The position numbers and the translations under genes were made by a program. The notes under the pieces were generated by a model that searched no databases, was not told where the DNA came from, and saw nothing but the letters and a program-made list of their open reading frames with translations. DNA of 21,889 nt from positions 1-21,889 of the IMG/VR virus record IMGVR_UViG_3300046321_000081; one strand, given 5' to 3'. This stretch comes from a virus. Shown here piece after piece: positions 15,161-15,986 of the stretch (position 1 is its first letter; every line of letters begins with the position of its first letter).

Positions 15161-15197
15161 ATAAACAGGGGCGCGACTGTAACGCGCAACCAACTAT

Positions 15198-15325
15198 GAC
15201 TGCGGTGGCTGATAGGTTAGGCTAGTGGAAAGATTTCGGTCAGAACTATAGATATGGCCACGATTGAGCGCACCACGATGGGTAACGCCCCTTGTAAGCA
15301 GGTTCGATTCCTGCCCGCAGTCAAC
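15198..15325 (+). tRNA. Oversized tRNA-like element, isotype unresolved
   Basis: A perfect 8-bp acceptor-type stem (GACTGCGG at 15198-15205 with CCGCAGTC at 15315-15322) closes the element. A fully canonical T-arm, GCAGG-TTCGATT-CCTGC, ends just before the 3' strand. The interior is about 50 nt too long for a tRNA. It contains GTGG/CCAC pairing and a loop-like CTTGTAA (a Thr UGU anticodon loop) directly abutting the T-arm without a 3' anticodon stem. The 3' end reads CAACT after the stem, so CCA is not encoded. It may be a rearranged or intron-like tRNA or a decoy. Confidence 0.5.
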
Positions 15326-15404: not shown

Positions 15405-15484
15405 GAAACGCGGCCAGACAAAGCGCCATTTATCATGAATGGGTAATCGTGAAAACTTTTTGACCTGCGGGCAACCGCGTTTCT
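15404..15484 (+). ncRNA. tRNA-sized element with 10-bp terminal stem
   Basis: AGAAACGCGG at 15404-15413 pairs perfectly with CCGCGTTTCT at 15475-15484, enclosing 61 nt. At the position of an anticodon arm lies CCATT-TATCATG-AATGG, a 5-bp stem with a 7-nt loop whose centre reads TCA; the usual U33 is replaced by A. No canonical T-arm is present. It is either a degenerate tRNA or another structured RNA. Confidence 0.4.
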
Positions 15485-15518
15485 ACACTGCCCGATGACC
15501 GGGCGACAAAAAAGAATT

Positions 15519-15611
15519 GGAAGCCTTTCCCCACGGCGGACTGTAAATCCGTTGCTTTACCAAATAAGTGGGGGTAGTCAGCGTAAGGTGCATATCCTTG
15601 GGCTTCCACCA
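15519..15611 (+). tRNA. tRNA-Tyr(GTA)-like element lacking a D-arm
   Basis: The acceptor stem is perfect (GGAAGCC/GGCTTCC), with discriminator A and encoded CCA. The anticodon arm is GCGGA-CTGTAAA-TCCGT, anticodon GTA at 15543-15545. The T-stem TAAGG/CCTTG is kept, but the T-loop reads TGCATAT instead of TTCNANT. Only 10 nt lie between acceptor and anticodon stem, so there is no D-arm. Instead CCCCAC (15529-15534) can pair with GTGGGG (15568-15573) in the long variable region, enclosing the anticodon hairpin. Confidence 0.5.
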
Positions 15612-15616
15612 TTAAC

Positions 15617-15693
15617 GGGCCGCTAGTCCAACTGGTAGAGACATTTGCCTTAGAAGCATTGTGTTGTTGGTTCGAATCCAACGCGGCCTACCA
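15617..15693 (+). tRNA. tRNA-Leu(TAG), short variable region
   Basis: Acceptor GGGCCGC/GCGGCCT (one G-U), discriminator A and CCA encoded. The D-arm carries the GG pair, and the T-arm GTTGG-TTCGAAT-CCAAC is canonical. The anticodon loop is CTTAGAA with anticodon TAG at 15651-15653, reading CUA. The outer two pairs of the anticodon stem are mismatched. The variable region is about 5 nt, unlike normal bacterial tRNA-Leu. Confidence 0.75.
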
Positions 15694-15698
15694 AATTA

Positions 15699-15776
15699 CC
15701 CCGCCTAGCCCAAGTAGGTAGAGGCGTCGGACTTAAAATCCGAATGTTGCAGGTTCGAGTCCTGCGGTGGGGACCA
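15699..15776 (+). tRNA. tRNA-Leu(TAA), short variable region
   Basis: The cloverleaf is complete: acceptor CCCCGCC/GGTGGGG, D-stem GCC/GGC, anticodon arm TCGGA-CTTAAAA-TCCGA (anticodon TAA at 15734-15736, reading UUA), T-arm GCAGG-TTCGAGT-CCTGC, discriminator A and encoded CCA. The variable region is only 5 nt, though tRNA-Leu is normally class II. Confidence 0.88.
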
Positions 15777-15781
15777 ATATT

Positions 15782-15855
15782 GTCGGTGTAGTGTAGTGGT
15801 AACACGGCAGTCTCCAAAACTGCAATTATAGGTTCAATTCCTATCACCCTCGCCA
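15782..15855 (+). tRNA. tRNA-Trp(CCA)
   Basis: Anticodon arm GCAGT-CTCCAAA-ACTGC is perfect, with anticodon CCA at 15814-15816. The D-arm reads GTGTAGTGGTAACAC, the T-arm ATAGG-TTCAATT-CCTAT. The discriminator is G, as in bacterial tRNA-Trp, and CCA is encoded. The acceptor stem has two mismatches (positions 2-71 and 3-70). Confidence 0.82.
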
Positions 15856-15899
15856 AAGTCTCGCCGGATTAAAACCCGTCGCCTGAATGTTTACAGGAT

Positions 15900-15976
15900 A
15901 GCTAGGATACGCGGCCTAGTGAGCGGATTAGGAAGTATGCGCCTTATGGCGGCATAGCGGTAAAGCCCGCCTAGCT
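15900..15976 (+). ncRNA. tRNA-sized cloverleaf-like element
   Basis: AGCTAGG at 15900-15906 pairs with CCTAGCT at 15970-15976, 77 nt overall. Inside are CGC-GGCCTAGTGA-GCG (D-arm-like), the hairpin TATGC..GCATA at 15937-15956, and GCGG-TAAAGC-CCGC next to the 3' strand where a T-arm would be. No TTCNANT loop and no CCA are present. Confidence 0.4.
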
Positions 15977-15986
15977 TCTGCCATAG

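Follow-up and report, generated by a model that had tools for sequence, protein, structure and literature searches.

Retron-Eco7 and Septu cut the tyrosine transfer RNA (tRNA-Tyr) in its variable loop, and phages escape by means of a tRNA-Tyr of their own (PMC11555353, PMC13096335); that of phage T5 resists cutting through a distinctive variable loop (PMC13096335). In bacteria, tyrosine identity is marked by G1-C72, A73, and the GUA anticodon (PMC9976931), and according to a 2024 study every bacterial tRNA known is a canonical cloverleaf and L-shape (PMC11551756). Here we analyze a tRNA-Tyr-like element without a D-arm at positions 15519-15611 of a 21.9-kb virus record (IMG/VR IMGVR_UViG_3300046321_000081; 21,889 nucleotides (nt), referred to below as the window). 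The best overall explanation is that it encodes a functional tyrosine tRNA whose fold is not a cloverleaf, a reading to which we give a probability of roughly 0.8. Covariation across its relatives (the family) shows that the acceptor, anticodon, and T stems, a six-pair helix (P1) that joins the strand in the place of the D-arm, CCNNAC, to GUNNGG of the variable region, and a four-pair variable-arm stem are real elements of the predicted fold. Because P1 and the variable-arm stem cross, together they form an H-type pseudoknot in that fold. Read by hand, the element runs GGAAGCC / UUU / CCCCAC / G / GCGGA CUGUAAA UCCGU / UGCU / UUACCAAAUAA / GUGGGG / G / UAG UC / AGCG / UAAGG UGCAUAU CCUUG / GGCUUCC / A CCA, and its parts are as follows:

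15519..15525, plus strand: 5' strand of the acceptor stem, GGAAGCC, with G1 as a Tyr identity base; 7/7 pairs with 15601-15607, and 6/7 pairs covary in the family.
15526..15528, plus strand: UUU between the acceptor stem and the alternative stem; invariant in the 20-sequence alignment, but named in the search patterns.
15529..15534, plus strand: 5' strand of the alternative stem P1, CCCCAC, in the place of the D-stem; all six pairs covary with 15568-15573.
15536..15552, plus strand: anticodon arm GCGGA CTGTAAA TCCGT, with anticodon GUA at 15543-15545; read in the sequence, and the stem covaries.
15553..15556, plus strand: 5' strand of the variable-arm stem, UGCU; family-wide pairing with 15580-15583 is 92.5%, and two of the pairs have two-sided changes.
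15557..15567, plus strand: variable-arm loop, A/U-rich and of differing length between relatives in the 20-sequence alignment.
15568..15573, plus strand: 3' strand of P1, GUGGGG, within the variable-arm loop (pseudoknot); supported by covariation and by its complement in relatives.
15575..15577, plus strand: UAG motif in the variable-arm loop, a proposed stand-in for D-loop G18-G19; T-loop position 55 and the second base of the motif covary.
15580..15583, plus strand: 3' strand of the variable-arm stem, AGCG; supported by covariation.
15584..15600, plus strand: T-arm UAAGG UGCAUAU CCUUG (stem 15584-15588 / 15596-15600), with G at loop position 55; G55 goes with the A of the variable-arm motif.
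15601..15611, plus strand: 3' strand of the acceptor stem, GGCUUCC, discriminator A73, and encoded CCA; read in the sequence.

The element thus has a 7-base-pair (bp) acceptor stem, a 5-bp anticodon stem with a 7-nt loop, and a 5-bp T-stem with a 7-nt loop, together with the long variable arm bearing its own stem that is a trait of bacterial tRNA-Tyr; the loop of that arm is part of the pseudoknot. No member of the family has a D-arm, and a 10-nt linker without a hairpin is found instead. At the UUU position, members found by covariance model carry GUU, GCU, GUC, or others.

Stem covariation was scored on a 20-sequence alignment, and mutual information was calculated on 30 hand-aligned sequences with no assumed structure. 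P1 has two-sided changes at 6/6 pairs, with 98.3% of its cells paired, and the variable-arm stem has them at 2/4 pairs. The whole-structure covariation score was reached by 0/500 shuffles, and it fell from 0.682 to ~0.17 when the partner columns were slid by one. Pairs of the acceptor, anticodon, T, P1, and variable-arm stems also rank high by mutual information. A preliminary description of the window had noted an intact acceptor stem, anticodon arm, T-stem, discriminator, and CCA, a D-arm replaced by 10 nt whose CCCCAC faces GTGGGG, and the T-loop TGCATAT, and each of these is present as described. Its proposal, that the Tyr tRNA is not decayed but D-armless and has a compensated alternative stem, gains support from the covariation of all six pairs, the check that it had put forward itself, and the refuting case it had named, a same-lineage homologue possessing a normal D-arm, did not turn up. 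What it did not recognize is that the alternative stem and the variable arm are the two halves of a pseudoknot.

Blast, pattern, and covariance-model scans found more than 30 distinct relatives, which come from phages, from Planctomycete tRNA arrays, and from a single proteobacterium; L numbers denote the fetched loci that were compared with the window. Blast of these loci returned a diverged copy in L008 and a full-length copy in L009 that is 91% identical and adjoins two Leu tRNAs. The L009 copy has eight differences from that of the window and no broken pair: two pairs of changes are compensatory (in the variable arm C-G becomes U-A, and in the T-stem A-U becomes G-C), an acceptor C to U gives G-U, and three lie in the T-loop. 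Pseudomonas phage SCYZ1, first seen as a weak blast match, carries an unannotated member beside tRNA-Pro, with P1 as CCUCAC/GUGAGG; this copy occupies 46806-46894 on the minus strand of MH518298.3. The pattern scans covered viral contigs and genome contigs, and one pattern specified no letter of P1. With selection on the acceptor, anticodon, and T stems only, this pattern and the earlier scans yielded 20 distinct sequences, and a 6/6 complement of P1 lies in the variable region of all 20. The P1 variants include CCCCAC/GTGGGG, CCTTAC/GTAAGG, CCGCAC/GTGCGG, CTCTAC/GTAGAG, TTCTGA/TCAGAA, and CCCGCC/GGUGGG. The unbroken pairs of L009, the 20/20 complements, and a structure-only scan of 2.2 Mb of fetched loci that returns the family alone confirm that the element at 15519-15611, with its predicted alternative stem, is not a product of chance. 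Pattern matches rejected as chance, among them L091-L094, L098, and L105, have no acceptor or P1 pairing.

The covariance model includes P1, so the members it found are biased toward P1, and those from the P1-free pattern are not. In Planctomycetes only matches above 55 bits were counted, because most of those at ~30-37 bits belong to normal tRNA-Tyr or to another tRNA. By this measure 8/294 Planctomycetota genomes carry a member, one of the eight having been found previously. The model also found two copies in 1/398 Pseudomonadota genomes and no member in 292 Cyanobacteria genomes. E. coli genomes gave no match to the family, and plasmids gave no member, with anticodon-arm matches at most. 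Sinorhizobium phage Phosso gave only covariance-model scores typical of ordinary tRNAs; a stretch of it (L274, Phosso 410384-434411) has a cluster of more than 30 annotated tRNAs. Tyr and Ser are absent from the part read, and these genes may be elsewhere, missing, or oddly shaped. Copies in Pirellulaceae lie within arrays of up to ~25 tRNA genes, and phage copies are likewise located in tRNA clusters. A second copy in a Rhodopirellula genome (L262 1556-1649, minus strand) has a T-run in place of the anticodon loop and is a pseudogene of the family.

The variable arm also covaries with the T-loop. The strongest non-helix pair by mutual information links T-loop position 55 with the middle base of the triplet that follows P1: YGG occurs with UUC in 21 of the 30 sequences and UAG with UGC (CGC in L009) in nine, with no mixed combination. 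Two later members are concordant (L276 GG/UUC, L284 AG/UGC), for a total of 32/32, and the association has a Fisher p of 7e-8, uncorrected for kinship. With these two columns left out of the tree, each trait undergoes five changes, and the supported independent pairs are concordant in 3/3 cases. The Neorhodopirellula (L127) and Rhodopirellula maiorica (L136) copies differ solely at both coupled sites and at the base preceding the first. In a normal tRNA the D-loop reaches the T-loop through G18, which contacts position 55, and G19, which contacts C56. The alignments thus show a coupling between the putative docking bases, GG or AG after P1, and U or G at T-loop position 55, which points to the variable arm as the likely source of the D-loop contact missing at the tRNA elbow. 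The preliminary description was right that the T-loop is odd; it missed the coupling to the variable-arm motif, and the oddity is not a sign of drift.

The identity of the tRNA points to tyrosine. G1-C72, A73, and G34-U35 are all present in the window copy; G1-C72 occurs in 30/32 members, A73 in every GUA member listed, and CCA is often encoded. An architecture scan for any anticodon, run on both strands of 276 loci (2.2 Mb), returned 23 distinct sequences, all of the family, 22 with GUA and one with GCA. The latter (L271 984-1074, minus strand) is a second copy ~400 nt from the GUA copy, with complete P1 and discriminator U73. GCA and U73 are cysteine identity elements. An apparent change from Tyr to Cys identity would therefore have taken place within the D-armless pseudoknotted fold. 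Since G1-C72, A73, and GUA are kept and CCA is often encoded, the RNA is likely charged with tyrosine and used in translation as a tyrosine adaptor.

These features can be assembled into a model of the mature RNA. P1 would stack on the anticodon stem in the place of the D-stem, and the GG or AG motif would dock into the T-loop instead of D-loop G18-G19, rebuilding an L-shape with an elbow but no D-arm. The host tyrosyl-tRNA synthetase (TyrRS) would charge this RNA, as G1-C72, A73, GUA, and the long variable region suggest, and the RNA would read UAU and UAC. With less confidence, phages and mobile tRNA arrays may keep the gene as a supply of tyrosine safe from variable-loop nucleases. Our tentative best guess is that the fold is kept because it is neither recognized nor cut by host nucleases that attack normal tRNA-Tyr in the variable loop. 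A variable arm tied up in a pseudoknot would be a logical further step beyond tRNA-Tyr of the T5 type, although we would put this link to defense at somewhat under even odds. The same caution applies to the full proposal of a separate natural tRNA fold, a D-armless tRNA-Tyr whose variable-arm pseudoknot gives both a core helix and an elbow contact and which phages and mobile tRNA arrays carry specifically for tyrosine, because the reshaped variable arm escapes host nucleases that cut tRNA-Tyr at that site; it is possible, and we lean slightly away from it.

Several points weigh against a working tyrosine tRNA of this shape. First, the reading is built on sequence and has no link to a particular defense system. 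Second, the A-G contact replacing G18-U55 is deduced from covariation over about five evolutionary events, three of them on supported branches; the sign test on these three pairs gives p 0.25, too few for formal significance. In the window, moreover, T15558 could pair with A15576 and compete with docking. Third, decayed copies exist (L262, which is broken, and L270), and at least 4/5 tested Pirellulaceae genomes carrying the D-armless gene have a normal tRNA-Tyr elsewhere, which makes the D-armless gene an extra. Fourth, the patterns that gathered most loci name the GUA anticodon and thus cover exclusivity to Tyr only in part. For this reason an anticodon-free pattern was run over viral contigs; the only real candidates it added were GUA members (L276, L284), with no other isotype, and its remaining matches, which have no stems, were rejected as chance.

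The alternative that survives best accepts a working tRNA-Tyr kept for codon demand or tRNA supply only, with a fold that has drifted but is stable and has no defensive value. Phages carry tRNAs for supply, and the genes of the window use UAU 122 times and UAC 62 times, Tyr making up 3.4%. However, the other tRNAs of the same clusters remain cloverleaves, the fold is limited, as far as tested, to Tyr, a documented nuclease target, and Planctomycetes already have a normal tRNA-Tyr. We regard supply alone as a serious if somewhat doubtful possibility.

Unlikely, in our view, is a tRNA mimic acting outside translation, for example as a decoy that binds or inhibits a nuclease cutting tRNA-Tyr, or as a substrate of another enzyme. 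The shape is unlike that of a normal tRNA, phage tRNA-Tyr has been discussed as a possible decoy or supplement in Septu defense (PMC13096335), and the tRNA-like structures of plant viruses are charged with tyrosine and take no part in protein synthesis (PMC9976931). Against this, the anticodon loop, A73, G1-C72, and often CCA are retained, GUA is nearly invariant although a mere decoy would not need it, and the one copy that shifted to GCA did so together with U73, suggesting decoding.

A nested junction, in which P1 forms and the variable-arm stem does not, so that there is no pseudoknot, is more doubtful still: P1 alone makes a good nested structure, and minimum-energy folding gives near-equal alternatives, but the variable-arm stem is 92.5% paired, has two-sided changes at two of its four pairs, and has one pair in the top mutual-information list. 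Finally, a decaying tRNA-Tyr pseudogene with a deleted D-arm and an accidental GC-rich complement would account for the absent D-arm, the unusual T-loop, the blindness of ARAGORN and Rfam to the gene, and the decayed family copies elsewhere, but we reject it as scarcely credible, because covariation of all stems over more than 30 sequences rules it out and the acceptor stem is perfect, CCA is present, none of the eight differences from L009 breaks a pair, and the family has spread over the long term through phages and two bacterial phyla.

A working tRNA-Tyr with a non-cloverleaf fold also fits its setting. The window carries genes for tail, lysis, exonuclease, sliding clamp, and thymidylate synthase, and a tRNA cluster at ~15.5-15.9 kb that continues beyond the element as follows:

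15617..15855, plus strand: neighboring tRNA genes Leu(UAG) 15617-15693, Leu(UAA) 15699-15776, and Trp(CCA) 15782-15855, called by ARAGORN and Rfam RF00005.

Neither ARAGORN nor Rfam (E <= 1) recognizes 15519-15611, though both detect these three adjoining tRNAs, and the element does not reach the gathering score of the cloverleaf model RF00005. Both Leu tRNAs are without the long variable arm usual in bacterial tRNA-Leu, and short Leu tRNAs are also found in L009 and in Planctomycete arrays; the anticodon stem of the window Leu(UAG) has mismatches that are absent from the L009 copy. In L009, ARAGORN calls a tRNA with the four-base anticodon CGAG at 1029-1125, and another tRNA-like piece lies at ~605-665. 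A further tRNA-like element in the window, at 15197-15323, is unseen by ARAGORN and Rfam (UGACUGCGG ... GCAGG UUCGAUU CCUGC CCGCAGUCA); it has an acceptor of 8-9 bp and a canonical T-arm with ~90 nt between, and L001, L005, and L007 match its T-arm half at >=90% identity but have a different middle. Two intergenic segments, 15858-15980 and 15479-15509, contain inverted repeats, are 92-100% conserved in related phages (L001, L003, L007), and have no Rfam match. They are shuffled in module-like fashion between tRNA genes and are possibly processing RNAs or ribozymes.

A D-armless pseudoknotted tRNA-Tyr would be a new tRNA shape. We found no earlier description of such a fold in the open-access literature that was searched, which leaves priority unproven; the main text of a review of non-canonical tRNAs contains neither "phage" nor "pseudoknot" (PMC7609411). 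The family would represent a natural exception that extends over phages and two bacterial phyla and in which covariation supports a replacement for the D-arm, and it bears directly on the extent to which the bacterial ribosome, EF-Tu, RNase P, and TyrRS depend on the D-arm and elbow. The fold offers a new tRNA scaffold, accounts for a tRNA-Tyr going unseen by standard tRNA finders in some tRNA-rich phages and arrays, and provides a testable case of tRNA shape as counter-defense.

Among known systems, canonical bacterial tRNA-Tyr (class II) shares with the family the 7-bp acceptor stem with G1-C72, A73, the GUA anticodon arm, a long variable region, and the T-arm. Canonical tRNA-Tyr from Planctomycete genomes in which the odd form occurs as well (L146-L150) has ~20 nt from the acceptor to the anticodon stem and a 13-nt variable region, whereas the D-armless family has 10 nt in place of the D-arm and a pseudoknotted variable region of 22-38 nt. 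The tRNA-Tyr of T5 and others that counter retron-Eco7 or Septu are likewise phage-encoded, with a variable region unlike that of the host, but the T5 molecule has a normal D-arm, a 21-nt linker, and a 15-nt variable region, and it was rejected as a family member because of its D-arm. Mobile tRNA arrays of mycobacterial plasmids and phages and of Planctomycetes offer a genetic setting of the same kind; the tRNA-Tyr of one mycobacterial array (pCBMA213_1, L273:3975-4059) was rejected as a member for its D-arm and short variable loop. Allo-tRNAs and selenocysteine tRNA (tRNA-Sec) are natural tRNAs with altered arms, in which acceptor and T-stem lengths are altered or the D-arm is enlarged and the D-arm is kept (PMC7609411). 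The tyrosylated tRNA-like structure of brome mosaic virus (BMV) is a non-cloverleaf viral RNA with Tyr identity; it differs in lying at the 3' end of the viral genomic RNA, outside translation, with C1-G72 (PMC9976931), and has no sequence relation to the family. The absence of a D-arm itself is shared with mitochondrial tRNAs such as animal mt-tRNA-Ser GCU, which differs also in isotype and genome. Those tRNAs are shortened and flexible, with a connector in the place of the arm (PMC7609411), whereas the present family, known from phage and bacterial records rather than mitochondria, would compensate for the lost arm with a covarying helix and a docking motif.
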